In this document: positions 8,722 to 60,165 of the stretch, piece by piece
Position numbering within the stretch: the first letter of the stretch is position 1
Layout of the letters: each line of letters begins with the position of its first letter
Assembly: GCA_030591525.1 (NCBI GenBank)
Contig: JAUVAV010000017.1
Span: forward strand, 1 to 60,165
DNA from: a candidate division FCPU426 bacterium
Lineage (GTDB): Bacteria > Oederibacteriota > JAAXVQ01 > JAUVAV01
DNA length: 60,165 nucleotides
Reading direction: 5' to 3'
Made by a program: the position numbers and the translations under genes
Notes under the pieces: generated by a model
Databases searched by the model: none
Seen by the model: only the letters and a program-made list of their open reading frames with translations
Told to the model about the DNA's origin: nothing

Positions 8722-9060
8722 ATGCGTATTGCAATACCAGTAGCTAATGGCAAATTATCCATGCATTTCGCGCATTGTGAAGAATTTGTCCTGATTGATG
8801 TGGATGAACAGGAAAAGAAAATTACCGGCCAAGCGGGGCTTAAGCCGCCGGCGCACGAACCCGGCGTGCTTCCGCGCTGGCTGCATGAGCAGGGAGCTAA
8901 TATAATCATTGCCGGAGGCATGGGGCAGCGGGCCCAACAGCTTTTCGTCCAGAACGGAATAACCGTGATCGTAGGTGCGGATAGCGGGTCGCCGGAGGAA
9001 TTGGTCTCAGCTTATTTGAATAGTACTTTGCAGACCGGGGCTAATCTTTGTGATCACTAA
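8722..9060 (+). CDS. NifX/ORP-like family protein (copy 2)
   Basis: A 112-residue protein of the same Fe-Mo cofactor-binding fold as the one at 5885. It begins MRIAIPVANGKLSMHFAHCEEF; the S.HF..C segment replaces the S..D.RFG of copy 1, and the histidine/cysteine pair is typical of ORP-type members that may bind a metal cluster. IIAGGMGQRAQQLFVQNGI is the conserved core. An AAGGAG site precedes the ATG. The stop codon TAA (9058-9060) lies inside the terminal inverted repeat of the element that follows, so the last residues may have been altered by that insertion. Confidence 0.82.
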   Translation: MRIAIPVANGKLSMHFAHCEEFVLIDVDEQEKKITGQAGLKPPAHEPGVLPRWLHEQGANIIIAGGMGQRAQQLFVQNGITVIVGADSGSPEELVSAYLNSTLQTGANLCDH

Positions 9061-9329
9061 TTAGTATCTGTTGCGGAAGCGTGTTTTTTTAAGTTTGTCA
9101 TTCCGAACCCTTCGCATGTCATCTCGAGCTGTAGGCGAGGGATCTCCACGCATACTTGAAAATGTAGTCTATTGCTACATTCCAAAGTCGGCTCAGGACA
9201 GGCTCCGTGAGGAATCTCCACGAAAACGCCTGAATTATCAGGTCTCCTGGAGATTCTTCGCCTTCGGCTCAGAATGACAAAACGCGGGGAGCCCGCTAAA
9301 AATAGCTTTCCGCAACAGGAACTAATTAG
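9057..9329. mobile_element. MITE-like element with ~23-bp terminal inverted repeats
   Basis: The left end CTAATTAGTATCTGTTGCGG (9057-9076) and the right end CCGCAACAGGAACTAATTAG (9310-9329) are inverted repeats with only two or three mismatches. The ~225-base interior has its own inverted-repeat character: GTCATTCCGA...GAGGGATCTCC at left against GGAGATTCTTCGCC...CAGAATGACA at right. It has no transposase. Related ends occur at 25911 and 39208. The left end supplies the stop codon of the preceding gene. The weak open frame inside it is not a gene. Confidence 0.75.
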
Positions 9330-11589: not shown

Positions 11590-11643
11590 GAGCGGAATTC
11601 TATTTTATAATATATAAGTGCTAGTTATAATAAATCCGCAGTT

Positions 11644-11671
11644 GTAGGGGCGTTTAATTAAACGCCCCTAC
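11644..11671. repeat. 28-bp perfect GTAGGGGCG palindrome
   Basis: Arms GTAGGGGCGTTTAA and TTAAACGCCCCTAC are exact reverse complements. It is one of several GTAGGGG-type palindromes in the window and lies 55 bases behind the CoA-disulfide reductase stop. Confidence 0.85.
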
Positions 11672-11710
11672 AGCACGTGAGTAAAATATCTTATTGTGCC
11701 TCTGATTATC

Positions 11711-25910: not shown

Positions 25911-26072
25911 TTAGTTTCTGTTGCGGAAAGGTTGTTTTAGGAGCTTGAGCATTTAGTCGGTTTTTTGAGAGTAGATAGTAGAAAGTAGACCGCATTTGAG
26001 ATATTTTATCTAATTTCTACTATCGAATCTCAAATGCTCTGGAGCCTGAGCAACTAAATGCTCAGGCTCCTA
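25911..26072. repeat. Composite repeat: MITE end plus full TAGGAGCC element (reverse orientation)
   Basis: Bases 25911-25932 match the terminal repeat of the 9057 element (GAATTAGTTTCTGTTGCGG). Bases 25938-26072 are a TAGGAGCC element on the minus strand: an arm hairpin (GGAGCCTGAGCA / TGCTCAGGCTCC at 26041-26070), two interleaved 11-bp stems, and a third arm copy at 25938-25957. Stem 1 is GCATTTGAGAT (25992-26002) with ATCTCAAATGC (26027-26037). Stem 2 is GATAGTAGAAA (25974-25984) with TTTCTACTATC (26014-26024). Confidence 0.75.
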
Positions 26073-36825: not shown

Positions 36826-36854
36826 TTGACATTCTGAAACATAAAATATAATAT
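36826..36854 (+). promoter_or_regulatory. Promoter of the cobalamin riboswitch-btu transcript
   Basis: TTGACA (36826-36831) and TAATAT (36849-36854) are 17 bases apart in AT-rich DNA. The riboswitch begins about 10 bases after the -10 box, so the promoter is well placed. Confidence 0.7.
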
Positions 36855-36864
36855 TTCTCCACAA

Positions 36865-37035
36865 TTCGCAGGTTCTCCAAGCGGAGATGAAAAGGGAACC
36901 CCGTGTAAATCGGGGACGGGCCCGCCGCTGTAACCGGGGACGGCTGCCGCAGTATTGCCACTGTTCATAAGAACGGGAAGGCGCGGCACCAGCCGGATGA
37001 TCCGGAAGTCAGAAGACCTGCCTGCGGATGCAGTA
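36865..37035 (+). ncRNA. Cobalamin (B12) riboswitch
   Basis: Features of the adenosylcobalamin aptamer in order: GCAGGT near the 5' side, AAGGGAACCCCGTGTAAAT, CGGGGACGGGCCCGCCGCTG and TAACCGGGGACGG (the B12-box region), then GGAAGTCAGAAGACCTGCC pairing back to the 5' GCAGG to close P1. In the presence of cobalamin it should repress btuB and the uptake genes downstream. The 37036-37244 leader up to btuB holds the probable expression platform, including an AAAATGCGG...TTTTAAAA hairpin-prone stretch before the ribosome site; I cannot fold it reliably. Confidence 0.9.
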
Positions 37036-37244
37036 ATGGTTTATTGCCTCTCGGAATCAGGGGCGGATATCATACACCGGTTATTTTCCAGGTTAGGGCT
37101 GGTTTGTGTACGCTTTCGAGCAAGCGTATGGCTCTGTCCACCAAGGGAGAGGCTTGGTTCTCAAGGCCAACAGGGACGCCTTGGGCTGCATTTTTTTAAA
37201 ATGCGGTTCAAGGCGTTTTTTATTTTAAAAAGGGGGATTATACG

Positions 37245-39194
37245 ATGAGATTTAAAAAGCTATTCAAGCAAACCGGTTTGATTATGGGAATTAGCATGGC
37301 GGGCCTGGCTGCACCCGTGTACCTTCCGGCCTATGTTGAGATGGAGCCTGTGATGGTAAAAGCTTCCCGCATTGAAACCCGCGTTTCCGAGGCGCCCGGT
37401 TCGGTTACTGTAATCACGGCGGAAGAGATTGCGGCTAAGCAGGTGCACAACGTAGCAGAGGTAGTAAAGGGGATCATGGGAGTGGAGGTGTCGGGAAACG
37501 GAGGCCCCGGCCAAAGCGTCTCGGTTTTTATCCGGGGCGCGGCCTCGGAACGCACTCTGATAATGTTAAACGGTATACCTTTGAATGATCCGGTTTCTCC
37601 GGCCCGGAGTACGGACCTTTCCAAAATAACCGTGGATAATATCGAAAGGATAGAAGTTATCCGCGGACCGCAAAGCGTGGTTTACGGTTCCAGCGCTATG
37701 GGCGGCGTGATCAACATTATTACGAAGAAAGGGGGTAAAGCCTGGACCGGGTCACTCAGCGCGGAAGCCGGCAAGTACTCCTTCTGGCTGGGTAAACTTG
37801 CGGCTTCCGGATCTATATCGAATCTGGACATCGCGCTGGGCGCTTCATTGGAAAATACCCGGGGATTTTCCGCGGCCAAACGGAAGGAAGAGTACGCGCA
37901 ATCGCAGCCGGCCATGGACCCGGACGGGTATCGCAACCTGAGCATTGATTTAAACCTGGATTACCGCCCTTTATCTAATCTCGGCTTCAGTCTGAAGAAC
38001 CGTTATTTGACCGGAGATAATGATTTGGATAATTTTGCCGGAGATTTCGGAGATGATCCGGATTATAAAATGAGGTTTGTACAAACTATTAGCGGCTTCA
38101 ATACGCAATGGGATATGCTGGAGGGATTCTGGCAGCAGGAATTAAACCTGGGATTAAGCCAAACCGACCGAGCTTATAATAATCCCCAGGATCCGGATCA
38201 TCCTTTTGATCTCACGCGCAGTGAATACCGCTCCCGGAATCTGACCTTTGATTGGCAGAATAAATTGAATATCCATGAAAATGAAAAACTTGCCGTGGGA
38301 ATATGCTATCAGCAGGAACAAGGGATGTACAATTTTTATTCGGAATATCTCGACTACTATACTTCAATGCCGGCGGTCTGGGAGGACTCCCTCGAAGCTT
38401 GTTCGGCCCACCTGGCCGGAGGGTATTTAGAGAGTCAAACCCGGCTCGACCCGGTATTGGTCATGCTGGGTCTTCGCTATGATGAGCATGACCAGTATGG
38501 CGAATTCTTGACTTATCGGGCAGCCTTGTCGTGGCTGCTAGAAGGACTGGGAACCCGGATTAAAGCCGCGTACGGAACAGCTTTTAACGTACCGTCCCTT
38601 TACCAGCGTTACTCTAATTACGGAAATGAAGATATAAAGGCCGAGTTTTCCCGGGGCGGAGAGGCGGGATTTGAAACTACCTGGTGGAAAAACCGGGTTG
38701 ATTTGGGTGCTGCTTATTTCCGGAACGATTATCAGGACCAGGTGGGGTTTGATTACGCGAACTATAAGTATCTTAATTTAAACCGGGTCAATATCCAGGG
38801 ATGGGAGACCTTTGTCAAGGTGAGGCCCAGGGAAAATATCAGGCTGCAAGTAACCTATACCCGGCTGGTGGCCCGGGATTTGACTTTTGAGGAGATCATG
38901 GGGCCGCAGCCGCTGCTAAGAAGAGCTGATTACCAATTCGGATTTCAGGCGGGATATGATTTTGCGGACGCGGGCATCAACCTGTATGTCCGGCATGTCG
39001 GTCCCCGTTGGGATTTAAACCAAACCTTGCTGGAACCCTATACTCTGGTGAACGTGGCAGCTACCTACCGGGTAATACCCAGGGCCGAGATCCATATCCG
39101 GGTGGATAATCTTTTGGATGTGGATTATGAGGAGGTCATGGGGTATAATACTTCCCGCTTGGCCGTTTATGCGGGGGTTAAAGTAAGCCTGTAG
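37245..39194 (+). CDS. btuB: TonB-dependent outer-membrane cobalamin receptor
   Basis: A 649-residue outer-membrane receptor. A signal peptide ends near PAYVE. A plug domain spans ~35-150 (EAPGSVTVITAEEIAAKQVHNVAEVVKGIMG, FIRGAASERTLIMLNGIPLNDP, IEVIRGPQSVVYGSSAMGGVINIITKK), followed by a 22-strand-type barrel rich in aromatic girdles. The barrel ends ...YAGVKVSL; the last residue is Leu rather than the usual Phe. The location directly behind a B12 riboswitch and ahead of btuF-btuD-btuC makes cobalamin or cobinamide the likely substrate. TonB-ExbBD must be encoded elsewhere. Confidence 0.9.
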   Translation: MRFKKLFKQTGLIMGISMAGLAAPVYLPAYVEMEPVMVKASRIETRVSEAPGSVTVITAEEIAAKQVHNVAEVVKGIMGVEVSGNGGPGQSVSVFIRGAASERTLIMLNGIPLNDPVSPARSTDLSKITVDNIERIEVIRGPQSVVYGSSAMGGVINIITKKGGKAWTGSLSAEAGKYSFWLGKLAASGSISNLDIALGASLENTRGFSAAKRKEEYAQSQPAMDPDGYRNLSIDLNLDYRPLSNLGFSLKNRYLTGDNDLDNFAGDFGDDPDYKMRFVQTISGFNTQWDMLEGFWQQELNLGLSQTDRAYNNPQDPDHPFDLTRSEYRSRNLTFDWQNKLNIHENEKLAVGICYQQEQGMYNFYSEYLDYYTSMPAVWEDSLEACSAHLAGGYLESQTRLDPVLVMLGLRYDEHDQYGEFLTYRAALSWLLEGLGTRIKAAYGTAFNVPSLYQRYSNYGNEDIKAEFSRGGEAGFETTWWKNRVDLGAAYFRNDYQDQVGFDYANYKYLNLNRVNIQGWETFVKVRPRENIRLQVTYTRLVARDLTFEEIMGPQPLLRRADYQFGFQAGYDFADAGINLYVRHVGPRWDLNQTLLEPYTLVNVAATYRVIPRAEIHIRVDNLLDVDYEEVMGYNTSRLAVYAGVKVSL

Positions 39195-42404: not shown

Positions 42405-42422
42405 AAGAAGAGCCTCCGGGTA

Positions 42423-42580
42423 GTAACCTGTCAGTCATGGTACTTATATGACTGACAGGTTACAAAGCATTTGAACCTTAAACACAGAAAATAATATTCA
42501 AATGCGGTCAATTTTCGGTTTTCTATTCTCAACGCTCACTTTATCACAATGCGGTTTTAGTACCGTAACTGATGGGTTAC
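42423..42580 (+). repeat. Divergent member of the TAGGAGCC element class with unrelated arm sequence
   Basis: The arm hairpin GTAACCTGTCAGTCAT (42423-42438) / ATGACTGACAGGTTAC (42448-42463) is perfect. It is followed directly by AAAGCATTTGAA; GCATTTGAA (42467-42475) pairs with TTCAAATGC (42497-42505), then GGTC. A short second stem is AGAAAA (42486-42491) with TTTTCT (42519-42524). A third arm-like copy GTAACTGATGGGTTAC ends it (42565-42580). The layout is the same as in the 43706 element, but the arm sequence is different. The rest of the 42405-42787 gap is AT-rich, with a TATAAT at 42711. Confidence 0.55.
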
Positions 42581-42787
42581 TCCGGGTATGCTTGGCTATA
42601 ATATACCGAAACCACTCCGGGCGGTCAATCCTTTTGTGTTTTTTTACGTTGGGGCGCAAAATAATTTAAAAAATACTAAAAAAATGATTTATTAGATTAA
42701 TAAAGCACTTTATAATGCTTAAGTGATGAAAAGCCTGACCGGCTTCGATGAGGCTGAATAAGAAACCAGGAAAAGGGGTGGAGAAGA

Positions 42788-43708
42788 ATGTTCATAAGCG
42801 GTGGACAAAAGTCGAATCAAATGGCGCTCTACTATTTAAGGCTGGGATTAGGTTTTATTACTTTGTGGTCGGCTTGGGATGTAATAGTTCATCAGCAGCA
42901 ATGGAACGCCTTTTTTGCCGCTTTTCCCCTGGGGGGGCTGCTGGCCGGTGTAATAACCTTAGTCTGGTTTTTTATTCTATTGGTTGCCGGTCTGGCTTTG
43001 CTGACAGGATGGTACTTCCGGGAAGCGGCCGCAGGACTGGGAATCTTAATCTGCCTTTCTATTATTTTGTTCTCTTTCTTTACACCCAAAGTGAATGCCG
43101 TACTGGGGCCGTTTCGTCCTCTGGTGATTAAAAATCTGGTGTGGCTGGGAGCTTGTCTGACGCTGTTTATCCAGCCGACAGATCCTTATAATCCCGAACG
43201 CCGCGATCCCCAAGGGATGCCGGTCTATGCGGAAAAAGCTCATTTTAGCTTCCGATTGCTGGTGGGAATTTATTTAATTTGGGATGGAATACTCAAGGCC
43301 GTTAATGCGCATGGGTATTTTACTCTTCTGGAACGCGCCCTGGCCAAGATTCCATTAATTCCGGATGCCTTGGCGCCCGGAATGCTTATGGTCATTTGTG
43401 TCATCCAAATAGGCGCCGGTCTGCTGTTCCTGACGGGAATAAAGTTTCGCTGGGCGGTTGTGGCTTTAATCGCCTTGGCGTTGCTTAACCTATTGGGTTT
43501 AAACTGGTTCGCCACCAAAGGTCTTTTACGGGCCGGAGGGCGTTTTATGATGAGAGATTTCCTGGTGTTGGCAAGCGGGGTGTATTTCTGGTTGTCAGGA
43601 CCGGGGTTGCCGATTCTGCAAGTGCTAATTAAAAAAAGCCGGCCGTCTTTCGGAGACCGGAACTTAAATTCATCGACCGGGGAAAATATGCCGCCTCCGG
43701 CCCTCTAG
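42788..43708 (+). CDS. DoxX-like membrane protein
   Basis: A 306-residue polytopic membrane protein with about eight hydrophobic helices in two similar halves. ALYYLRLGLGFITLWSAWDV begins the first and SFRLLVGIYLIWDGILKAVN the second, both typical of the DoxX/DoxD-like fold. Known relatives include thiosulfate:quinone oxidoreductase subunits and proteins in oxidative-stress membrane complexes; no catalytic residues can be named here. The protein ends in a short hydrophilic tail, and its TAG stop is the first three bases of the following repeat element. An AGGGGTGGAG site precedes the ATG. Confidence 0.7.
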   Translation: MFISGGQKSNQMALYYLRLGLGFITLWSAWDVIVHQQQWNAFFAAFPLGGLLAGVITLVWFFILLVAGLALLTGWYFREAAAGLGILICLSIILFSFFTPKVNAVLGPFRPLVIKNLVWLGACLTLFIQPTDPYNPERRDPQGMPVYAEKAHFSFRLLVGIYLIWDGILKAVNAHGYFTLLERALAKIPLIPDALAPGMLMVICVIQIGAGLLFLTGIKFRWAVVALIALALLNLLGLNWFATKGLLRAGGRFMMRDFLVLASGVYFWLSGPGLPILQVLIKKSRPSFGDRNLNSSTGENMPPPAL

Positions 43709-43850
43709 GAGCCTGGGCAATTAGTTGCCCAGGCTCCAGAGCAATTGAGAATAGAGCAATAGAGCAATAGAAAAAACTCAATTGCGGTCTATTTTCTATT
43801 GTTCAATTGCTCAGGAATTAAAAAAAACAGACTAAATGCCCAGGCTCCTA
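43706..43850 (+). repeat. Full TAGGAGCC structured repeat element
   Basis: It begins with the stop codon of the preceding gene. The arm hairpin is GGAGCCTGGGCAA / TTGCCCAGGCTCC (43708-43720 / 43725-43737). Stem 1 is GCAATTGAG (43741-43749) with CTCAATTGC (43777-43785), followed by GGTCTA. Stem 2 is GAGCAATAGAAAA (43762-43774) with TTTTCTATTGTTC (43792-43804), with one G-U pair. A third arm copy TGCCCAGGCTCCTA (43837-43850) ends it. The two stems interleave. Confidence 0.75.
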
Positions 43851-58373: not shown

Positions 58374-60083
58374 ATGAGTAGCTTACGGATTGCCTTGGCC
58401 CAGATCAATCCTACCATGGGCGATTTCAAAACTAATACCGCAAAAATAAAGCGGAACATTATTCAGGCCCGGAAGGCGGACGCTGATTTGGTGGTTTGCC
58501 CGGAAATGGTTATTTGCGGTTATCCTCCGGAGGACTTGCTCTTGCAGTCCGGTTTTCTTGCCGCTAATGAAGCGGCCCGGCAGGAAGTGGCCCGTGAAAC
58601 GCAAGCGATAACCACGGTGGTGGGACTCGCGTACGGGGGACATGGCAAGACATTCAACTCGGCTGCGCTGATGGACGAAGGCAAGCTGTTGGATGTTTAC
58701 CATAAAATTGAATTGCCTAATTATGGAGTGTTTGATGAGAAACGCTATTTCGCGCCGGGCCGCCAACCATGCTTTTTCGAGTTGGGTAGTTGGCGCATAG
58801 CGATCACTATTTGTGAAGACCTATGGATCGAGAACGGAGTGGCGGAGAGCGTTATTCAACGGCAGAAAGTGGATTTGATTGTTAATTTGGCAGCTTCGCC
58901 TTTCCATGCCGGTAAGCAGAGCGTCCGGCAAAAAATCTTAAACCGGATAGCCCAGCGCAGCCGGGCGTATGTGGCGTATGTCAACCTGGTAGGCGGCCAG
59001 GATGAATTGGTTTTTGACGGCAACAGCATGATCATAAATCCCCGGGGAGAAATCGTGGCCGGCGCCGGGAGTTTTAGCGAGGAGCTTCTGCTGGCGGATA
59101 TTGAAAAGCCGTCCCGCCTTGCCTCGCCCCGGCCGGCTTCTCCGAAAAGCGGGGAATACGACGGAGGTTTAAGGATTAAGCGTCCGCTTAAATCCAACCG
59201 GAAAGCAATTCGCATAAAACCGGTTGCAAAAAAAAACCGCTTGGAAAATATTTATTCAGCGCTGGTGTTAGGAACGAGGGACTATGTTAAAAAAAACGGC
59301 TTTAAAAAAGCGGTTATTGGATTAAGCGGAGGGATAGATTCTTCGCTGACCGCGGCCATAGCCACGGCAGCTTTGGGCTGCGAAAACGTCATAGGCCTCA
59401 CCATGCCGTCGCAATATACTTCCGTTGCCACCCGTTCCGACGCAGGTCGGATTGCGGAGAATTTCAGGATACGCTTGTTTACCGTTCCCATTAAACCCAT
59501 ATTTGCCGCTTATCAGAAAACTCTATCAGGATCTTGGGGACCGGCGCCGGGAGGCATTGCAAACGAGAATCTGCAGGCCCGCATACGCGGCAATATCTTA
59601 ATGGCCTTTTCAAACCGTTTTGGATGGCTGGTTTTAACCACGGGCAACAAGAGCGAGGTAGCGGTGGGATATTGCACACTGTACGGGGATATGGCCGGTG
59701 GTTTAGCTGTAATCAAGGATGTTCCCAAGACCCTGGTATATGAGCTGGCACAGCATGTAAATGAAGCAGCCGGCCGGGAACTTATTCCGCAGAGTATTAT
59801 GGAACGTCCGCCTTCAGCGGAATTGCGTCCGGACCAAAAGGACGAGGATAGCCTGCCGCCATATGGCGTGCTTGATCCAATATTGAAGGAGTACGTGGAG
59901 GAGGACCGAGCTCTGGAAGAAATAATAGCTGAGGATTTTAAAAAGTCCACTGTGCTGGAAATTATCCAACGGGTAGACCGGAGTGAATACAAGCGCCGTC
60001 AGTCTCCGCCGGGAATCAAAATCACGCCCAAGGCCTTTGGCCGGGACCGGCGTCTGCCTATCACCAATCAATACCGGCCCTAG
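58374..60083 (+). CDS. nadE: Glutamine-dependent NAD+ synthetase
   Basis: A 569-residue enzyme for the last step of NAD synthesis. The N-terminal nitrilase (glutaminase) domain has RIALAQINPTMGDFKTN, the Glu region CPEMVICGYPPEDL, Lys in YHKIELPNYGVFDE and Cys in ITICEDLW. The C-terminal synthetase has the PP-loop AVIGLSGGIDSSL, TGNKSEVAVGYCTLYGDMAG and RPPSAELRPDQKDEDSLPPY. I choose ATG 58374, which starts MSSLRIALAQINP; the open frame back to 58296 overlaps mltD. The TAG stop is the first three bases of a TAGGAGCC repeat. Expression probably follows mltD. Confidence 0.93.
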   Translation: MSSLRIALAQINPTMGDFKTNTAKIKRNIIQARKADADLVVCPEMVICGYPPEDLLLQSGFLAANEAARQEVARETQAITTVVGLAYGGHGKTFNSAALMDEGKLLDVYHKIELPNYGVFDEKRYFAPGRQPCFFELGSWRIAITICEDLWIENGVAESVIQRQKVDLIVNLAASPFHAGKQSVRQKILNRIAQRSRAYVAYVNLVGGQDELVFDGNSMIINPRGEIVAGAGSFSEELLLADIEKPSRLASPRPASPKSGEYDGGLRIKRPLKSNRKAIRIKPVAKKNRLENIYSALVLGTRDYVKKNGFKKAVIGLSGGIDSSLTAAIATAALGCENVIGLTMPSQYTSVATRSDAGRIAENFRIRLFTVPIKPIFAAYQKTLSGSWGPAPGGIANENLQARIRGNILMAFSNRFGWLVLTTGNKSEVAVGYCTLYGDMAGGLAVIKDVPKTLVYELAQHVNEAAGRELIPQSIMERPPSAELRPDQKDEDSLPPYGVLDPILKEYVEEDRALEEIIAEDFKKSTVLEIIQRVDRSEYKRRQSPPGIKITPKAFGRDRRLPITNQYRP

Positions 60084-60165
60084 GAGCCTGAGCAATTAGT
60101 TGCTCAGGCTCCAGAGCATTTGAGATTCGATAGTAGAAATTAGATAAAATATCTCAAATGCGGTC
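60081..60165 (+). repeat. TAGGAGCC structured repeat element, cut by the window edge
   Basis: It starts with the nadE stop codon. The arm hairpin is GGAGCCTGAGCAA / TTGCTCAGGCTCC. Stem 1 is GCATTTGAGAT with ATCTCAAATGC, followed by GGTC at the edge. It is almost identical to the reverse-oriented copy at 25938-26072. The third arm and the second-stem partner lie outside the window. Confidence 0.75.

Follow-up and report, generated by a model that had tools for sequence, protein, structure and literature searches.

A covarying structured core shared by MITE-like mobile elements and by elements at the 3' ends of tRNA and tmRNA genes in a candidate division FCPU426 bacterium and other phyla

Selfish insertions in or beside the genes of stable RNAs have been described from quite different organisms. 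The intervening sequence (IVS) of Coxiella is a selfish element with inverted ends, which carries an S23p ORF preceded by heptamer repeats and is excised by RNase III (PMC4990558). Neither the function of the S23/IVP proteins and their rRNA intervening sequences nor the way in which they move is known (PMC4990558). On the eukaryotic side, the Dictyostelium retrotransposons TRE3 and Skipper-2 insert just downstream of tRNA genes (PMC5911963). Here we describe a family of structured repeats that resembles these systems in part and that is also carried by short elements of the kind known as miniature inverted-repeat transposable elements (MITEs).

The window analysed is a stretch of 60,165 nucleotides that makes up an entire contig (G000:C52). 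It comes from the genome of a candidate division FCPU426 bacterium, hereafter the focal genome, which is 2.70 Mb in size and 96% complete. An initial sequence-only reading had picked out three elements with a common layout (25938-26072 on the minus strand, 43706-43850 and 60081-60165 on the plus strand), and their sequences do read as it stated. The layout holds for all three; however, the third copy is incomplete, being cut off by the contig end, and the family is far larger than three. That reading also missed a second type of element in the window, the association with tRNA and tmRNA 3' ends, and a linked clade of S23 genes (see below). The features of the window elements are collected in Table 1.

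Table 1. Positions of the elements and their parts in the window.
Feature	Position	Strand	Remarks
MITE-1 element, core type 1	25938-26072	-	MFE z-score -8.2; absent from the equivalent site in same-genus G001
MITE-1 element, core type 2	43706-43850	+	MFE z-score -9.8
Left hairpin A-loop-A'	43707-43737	+	A and loop together make up the left terminal inverted repeat
Stem 1 left, X = GCAATTGAG	43741-43749	+	covariation
Stem 2 left, Y = GAGCAATAGAAAA	43762-43774	+	covariation
Stem 1 right, X' = CTCAATTGC	43777-43785	+
Fixed GGTC	43786-43789	+	conserved in cores whose stems otherwise differ
Stem 2 right Y', then X''	43792-43812	+	X'' is a second complement of X
Third arm	43831-43850	+	right terminal inverted repeat
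MITE-1 element, truncated by contig end	60081-60165	+
MITE-2 element	42423-42580	+	order hairpin, core, third arm; terminal repeats GTAACCTGTCAGTCATGGTACT / AGTACCGTAACTGATGGGTTAC, unrelated to those of MITE-1
X of the MITE-2 element, GCATTTGAA	42467-42475
Left 8-bp target duplication of the MITE-2 element	42415-42422	.	TCCGGGTA
Right 8-bp target duplication of the MITE-2 element	42581-42588	.	TCCGGGTA

The three elements first noticed, which we term MITE-1, consist of a hairpin A-loop-A' (GGAGCCTGAGCA ATTAGT TGCTCAGGCTCC) followed by AGA, X, Y, X', GGTC, Y', X'' and a third arm, and complete copies read TAGGAGCCTGAGCAATTAG-TTGCTCAGGCTCC-AGA-X-Y-X'-GGTC-Y'-X''-AAAAAA-CCGACTAATTGCTCAAGCTCCTA. 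The third arm reverse-complements A plus the loop and so is a terminal inverted repeat, which bears out the earlier suggestion that it could compete with the first arm. These repeats are about 20 nt long in the window copies, and the complementary ends form a stem. A pattern search recovered about 59 copies of the terminal hairpin in the focal genome (none with the pattern written backwards), and a strict core pattern, GAGCANNTGAG-N15..45-CTCANNTGCGGTC, recovered 69 cores, with none in the reversed control. Solo hairpins devoid of a core (L037, L046, L053 and L055) also occur, and two copies (L035 and L057) combine core type 1 with core type 2. Separately, a MITE-1 copy on contig C46 (L100:890-949) has its right half swapped for unrelated DNA after GATAGTAGAA. 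This copy, which had the look of a candidate autonomous element, may be a longer relative or may have arisen by recombination. Both flanks of MITE-1 are CTAG-like; a longer duplication is absent, and a TA or CTAG duplication is inseparable from the terminal repeat itself.

The second type, MITE-2, has different ends around its core. Besides the copy in Table 1, three copies show 8-bp duplications (GTAACCCG, GCTTACCT and CCCTGCTT at L004, L244 and L359, four copies in all), while a copy situated beside a MITE-1 end (L018) has none; the duplications indicate that MITE-2 moved as the derivative of a DNA transposon. In Omnitrophota the core is borne by a third type of terminal repeat (TAGTGCGCTGTTA...). 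The window further holds an inverted-repeat pair, CTAATTAGTATCTGTTGCGGAA / TTCCGCAACAGGAACTAATTAG, at 9057-9329 with 209 nt in between, perhaps another MITE family. The window elements are thus short, ORF-less, multicopy and bounded by terminal inverted repeats and, given these properties and the 8-bp duplication at 42423-42580, are MITE-like mobile elements, in keeping with the earlier proposal of a mobilisable element. DDE_3, the IS630/Tc1-type partner and the sole transposase family profile tried as a MITE parent, had no match in the focal genome.

Compensatory change had been proposed for both stems, and covariation tests on cases chosen without selecting on pairing itself support it beyond chance. 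Two bases of stem 1 were left free in the pattern, and these are complementary in 73 of the 79 matches listed (chance 1/16), in five combinations among those matches (AT/AT, TT/AA, GT/AC, GG/CC and AC/GT). Another set, lying behind tRNAs (see below), was picked solely by its hairpin, GA-G start and GGTC. Here eight or nine of the nine positions are Watson-Crick paired in 19 of 26 distinct X/X' pairs, with 16 different X sequences; mean pairing is 7.0 as against 4.8 upon re-pairing, and 0 of 2000 permutations, which take no account of sequence relatedness, reach 7.0. The X sequences themselves range from that of the type 2 element in Table 1 to GAATCGAAA, GCAGGTGAG, GCAATGGGT and GTCCCGCAC. For stem 2, complementarity is greater within cores than between re-paired halves (z 12 overall; 4.7 and 3.3 inside the two main X classes). 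Templated correction of quasi-palindromes may have contributed to these signals. Both stems covary, so the outcome that the initial reading had named as refuting its proposal did not occur; it is the folding pattern that is conserved in these repeats and not the sequence.

None of 200 shuffles folded as well as either of the two complete MITE-1 elements of the window (z-scores in Table 1), and their minimum-energy fold is a single long hairpin closed by the terminal repeats. The core taken alone has two options, pairing of X with X' or of XY with Y'X''. With X:X' enforced the mean energy is -12.7 kcal/mol in the focal genome and -16.4 kcal/mol in others, against -20.5 and -21.1 kcal/mol with X' left single; the long form has the lower energy in 19/23 of the focal and 65/88 of the other cores. 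The interleaved stems had been read as either a pseudoknot or alternative hairpins, and energies and loop length side with the latter. From pseudoknot geometry, simultaneous formation of both stems would be sterically unlikely, since only the 4-nt GGTC would be available to span a stem of 9-11 bp. This short linker, along with the lower energy of the long hairpin in most cores, disfavours a full pseudoknot, and we favour two mutually exclusive hairpins as the better reading of the predicted folds. X' is dispensable for the long hairpin, yet it is kept complementary to X, suggesting that the second state is probably used; X'' tolerates divergence from X, whereas X' does not.

The core, with the general formula AGA-X-heptads-X'-GGTC-heptads', is not confined to the window elements. 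It recurs in the phylum of the focal genome as well as in Omnitrophota, in Planctomycetota and in others, 22-43 nt past the 3' ends of tRNA or tmRNA genes and on the same strand. Among 85 cores in named contigs, 27 have an upstream tRNA on the same strand, as against two on the opposite strand, and none of 57 MITE cores has a tRNA upstream. A perfect hairpin separates tRNA and core in 31/34 cases, starting at -5 to +1 of the tRNA end, that is, in the unpaired discriminator-CCA (NCCA) tail. Its arms are 8-22 nt long, its loop usually 3 nt and its sequence specific to the locus. Many of these hairpins have the T-tract first (TTTTTTCGCC nnn GGCGAAAAAA) and so are not intrinsic terminators in either direction. 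Such a hairpin is mostly missing from tRNAs without a core, the exception being native terminators in some genomes. Hairpin and core follow about 15 of the 45 tRNAs of the focal genome by eye, or 10 by a strict criterion. Behind tRNAs a paired arm precedes GGTC in 42/140 instances, as against 863/39174 for other tetramers. The X type GCATTTGAG is common to tRNA-linked and MITE cores of the focal genome. For the tRNA-linked element, the right end is located only approximately, and no target duplication was seen there.

Several loci show these units in arrays. Contig C37 has arrays of tRNA plus element, in which a degenerate copy of tRNA-Arg lies between two elements. At L259:369-446, a degenerate tRNA-Arg (called as His, anticodon atg) has a hairpin and a core of its own and adjoins an intact tRNA-Arg with element; tRNA and element were apparently duplicated as one. 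In the relative G004, hairpin-core units with differing stems surround a tmRNA gene, beside a Y1 transposase gene (L101:4967-5700). Behind a tRNA-Gln and its hairpin, L203 (G002:C36) bears the octad GAACAGCA many times in succession, which gives the impression that the core's heptad/octad units can expand.

Some tRNA-linked elements contain a gene. A PF05635 search of 21 genomes, combined with inspection of the upstream DNA, revealed two kinds of S23 protein, one of which forms a clade (support 98/99) that spans the focal phylum, Omnitrophota and Planctomycetota and is typified by the N-terminus M-[APS]-F-[MLI]-F-E-[NK]-L-x-V-Y. All 15 genes of this clade follow a tRNA or tmRNA, a hairpin and a core, compared with 0/11 for S23 proteins outside it. 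The core pattern itself had led to six of the 15; the remaining contrast, 9/9 versus 0/11, is free of that bias, with two of the nine (L201 and L333) coming from one genus. For three of the 15 (L203, L210 and L213) the core was recognised by eye and not by the strict scan. The S23 domain lies 119-571 nt from the tRNA in these 15 loci, and in several the core ends about 20 nt ahead of the S23 start codon, which would make it the leader of the gene. The clade proteins match TIGR02436 with E of about 1e-28 to 1e-30 and the solved structure 2GSC, which one protein outside the clade matches equally well; their NCBIfam match to Avd is weak and below the cut-off. The S23 gene is missing from most tRNA-linked copies and from the window copies.

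Comparison of genomes shows presence and absence of both forms at corresponding sites. Between the two genes that flank the MITE-1 element at 25938-26072, G001 has no element, and the intergenic DNA is too diverged for the target to be read. From tRNA-Ser(gga) to the next tRNA gene there are about 105 nt in the focal genome versus 2-4 nt in G001, which is missing the element at several orthologous tRNAs, has decayed versions behind the Val, Pro, Ser(gct) and Glu tRNAs, and has no counterpart of the degenerate tRNA-Arg, hairpin and core of L259. The tRNA-Gln/glmU neighbourhood occurs without the element (L256, in the focal genome), with it (L127, L135 and L144), and with element and S23 gene (L134). 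We also noted in the window a perfect 30-nt palindrome (11643-11672, TGTAGGGGCGTTTAATTAAACGCCCCTACA), close variants of which stand a few nucleotides behind two tRNA-Arg genes of G001, where the focal genome has the element.

The strict-pattern matches listed come mostly from Omnitrophota, with others from the focal phylum, Planctomycetota (including Kuenenia, Phycisphaerales and Sedimentisphaerales among the matches listed), Auribacterota and Elusimicrobia. Matches in Prevotellaceae and Pseudonocardia look like chance, as their stems do not pair. In one sample, 12 of 45 genomes of the focal phylum (the focal genome included) and none of 244 others have the pattern. It has no match in 2.9 million viral contigs, which rules against a viral origin. 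Rfam matches at gathering score comprise, over the window, only a cobalamin riboswitch (128 bits; 36853-37039 on the plus strand, with the ORF at 37245-39194 downstream of it), with none over an element, and, over 12 related loci, only tRNA and tmRNA. An earlier description of the family was not found in the literature searched, which took in few subscription papers or preprints and is thus weak evidence of novelty.

With moderate confidence, we interpret these repeats as a family of presumably selfish elements, with tRNA and tmRNA 3' ends as its home, and the window elements as ORF-less carriers of its core that were amplified as DNA. The home form would be a perfect hairpin at the NCCA tail, followed by the core and, in coding members, by the S23-clade gene. 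The tRNA promoter may drive a transcript of tRNA, hairpin, core and, where present, S23, such that the core would be both trailer of the tRNA and leader of S23. In this RNA the core could adopt X:X' pairing or form the long XY:Y'X'' hairpin, with both states probably in use. By analogy with RNase III and the S23 intervening sequences of 23S rRNA (PMC4990558), processing of the tRNA precursor might remove the insert; the tRNA 3' end would then be a cheap and safe insertion site. S23 may bind the core and support its spread. The window copies would be ORF-less derivatives, moved as DNA by a transposase recognising their terminal inverted repeats. The direction of descent, from the tRNA form to the MITEs or the reverse, is something we infer, since most tRNA-linked copies have no S23 gene and the MITEs are not near tRNAs. 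Arms that invade the acceptor stem may be selected against, or copying may stop at the folded tRNA, and either would account for hairpins that halt at the NCCA tail. The second option would fit a more specific version of this proposal, which we put forward tentatively: a new tRNA-targeted class of bacterial mobile element, in which an S23 protein and its structured RNA would integrate at tRNA 3' ends and every insertion would make a hairpin of its own by fold-back copying of the trailer. If so, copying up to the folded tRNA would explain the locus-specific arms, the usual 3-nt loops and the arms that stop in the NCCA tail.

Alternatively, the repeats could be plain MITEs, with the core as passive cargo, and the covariation could stem from inverted-repeat correction by template switching, with no function in RNA or DNA. 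Terminal repeats, 8-bp duplications, high copy number and the lack of an ORF would all be expected of them, and templated correction can alter both arms together without selection. We nevertheless consider this unlikely, as cores with the same fixed AGA and GGTC and unrelated stems stand behind tRNAs in several phyla and before the S23 clade, and as uniform correction would not give an X'' that diverges from X alongside an X' that does not. Another scenario is a domesticated tRNA trailer: the host would use hairpin and core as an RNA element in the processing of tRNA 3' ends or in read-through, and MITEs would have captured them later. It draws on the exact position at the NCCA tail on the same strand, on the T-tract-first hairpins that are not terminators, and on the decayed versions behind orthologous tRNAs, which show inheritance. 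It is distinctly unlikely given the patchy occurrence (about 15 of 45 focal tRNAs, with G001 wanting it at several orthologous ones), the linkage to S23 and the tandem copies.

Recombination sites akin to integron attC, recognised in folded single-stranded form and with tRNA genes taking the part of cassettes, would also keep structure while varying in sequence, and the arrays on C37, with their degenerate tRNA-Arg between two elements, could be viewed in this light; attC sites are likewise devoid of sequence conservation (PMC2727003). However, the RYYYAAC / GTTRRRY box pair occurs in 0/104 cores, and we regard such sites as very improbable. The least probable account is that of REP-like elements moved by RAYT (Y1) transposases, which had been raised as partners by the sequence-only reading. 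Core-rich relatives do have Y1 genes, as does the focal genome with four, and one in G004 starts 113 nt from a core; however, of the Y1 loci inspected, this is the sole one with a core nearby. The sequence of the hairpin is not conserved, and a conserved palindrome flanking the Y1 gene was not seen at the inspected loci, G004 being the one exception. Moreover, Y1 transposition does not produce 8-bp duplications, and MITE-2 makes them. A diversity-generating retroelement (DGR) is ruled against by the absence of an RVT_1 (reverse transcriptase) match in the 96% complete focal genome; some relatives have one. By these tests, the elements are not REP sequences, attC sites or DGRs.

Set against the known systems, the family resembles in its parts the S23p-encoding intervening sequences of 23S rRNA in Coxiella and Leptospira (PMC4990558): like these, it is a presumably selfish element of stable-RNA genes, with, in coding members, an ORF for an S23p four-helix bundle, complementary ends that form a long stem, and tandem heptamers ahead of the ORF. 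The Coxiella heptamers (GACAGAT; PMC4990558) resemble the heptads of the core. The S23p protein is present in 15 tRNA-linked relatives and absent from the window copies. Unlike the 23S IVS, the elements here lie behind tRNA or tmRNA genes or between protein genes and not inside rRNA, and have a conserved core of their own (AGA-X-X'-GGTC), many ORF-less copies and other members of the S23 family as their clade. We therefore do not file them as IVS, as the rRNA location is lacking, even if they may work like one. The window elements resemble MITEs in that they measure ~135-160 bp, have terminal inverted repeats and no ORF, exist in many near-identical copies and, in the case of MITE-2, show the 8-bp duplication. 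They differ in their left end, a self-complementary hairpin, and in the covarying core behind it, which is also found outside MITEs. With integron attC they share a conserved structure of varying sequence placed behind genes, and not the attC boxes. As for DGRs, the S23 protein belongs to the same four-helix-bundle superfamily as Avd, in contrast to the missing reverse transcriptase noted above. TRE3 and Skipper-2 likewise sit just past tRNA genes, TRE3 in the same orientation, at a safe site in a compact genome (PMC5911963). These insert 8-150 bp away (PMC5911963), as against the NCCA tail here, where the elements are bacterial and no reverse transcriptase was seen in the focal genome. If our interpretation is correct, the family would be an example from bacteria of elements that find shelter behind tRNA genes, and some of the repetitive DNA between the genes of Omnitrophota and Planctomycetota may stem from it. 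Its tRNA-end location, dedicated S23 clade, presence and absence between genomes and ORF-less copies make it a testable system for S23 function, and among the systems compared here these S23-associated selfish elements possibly form a class of their own.
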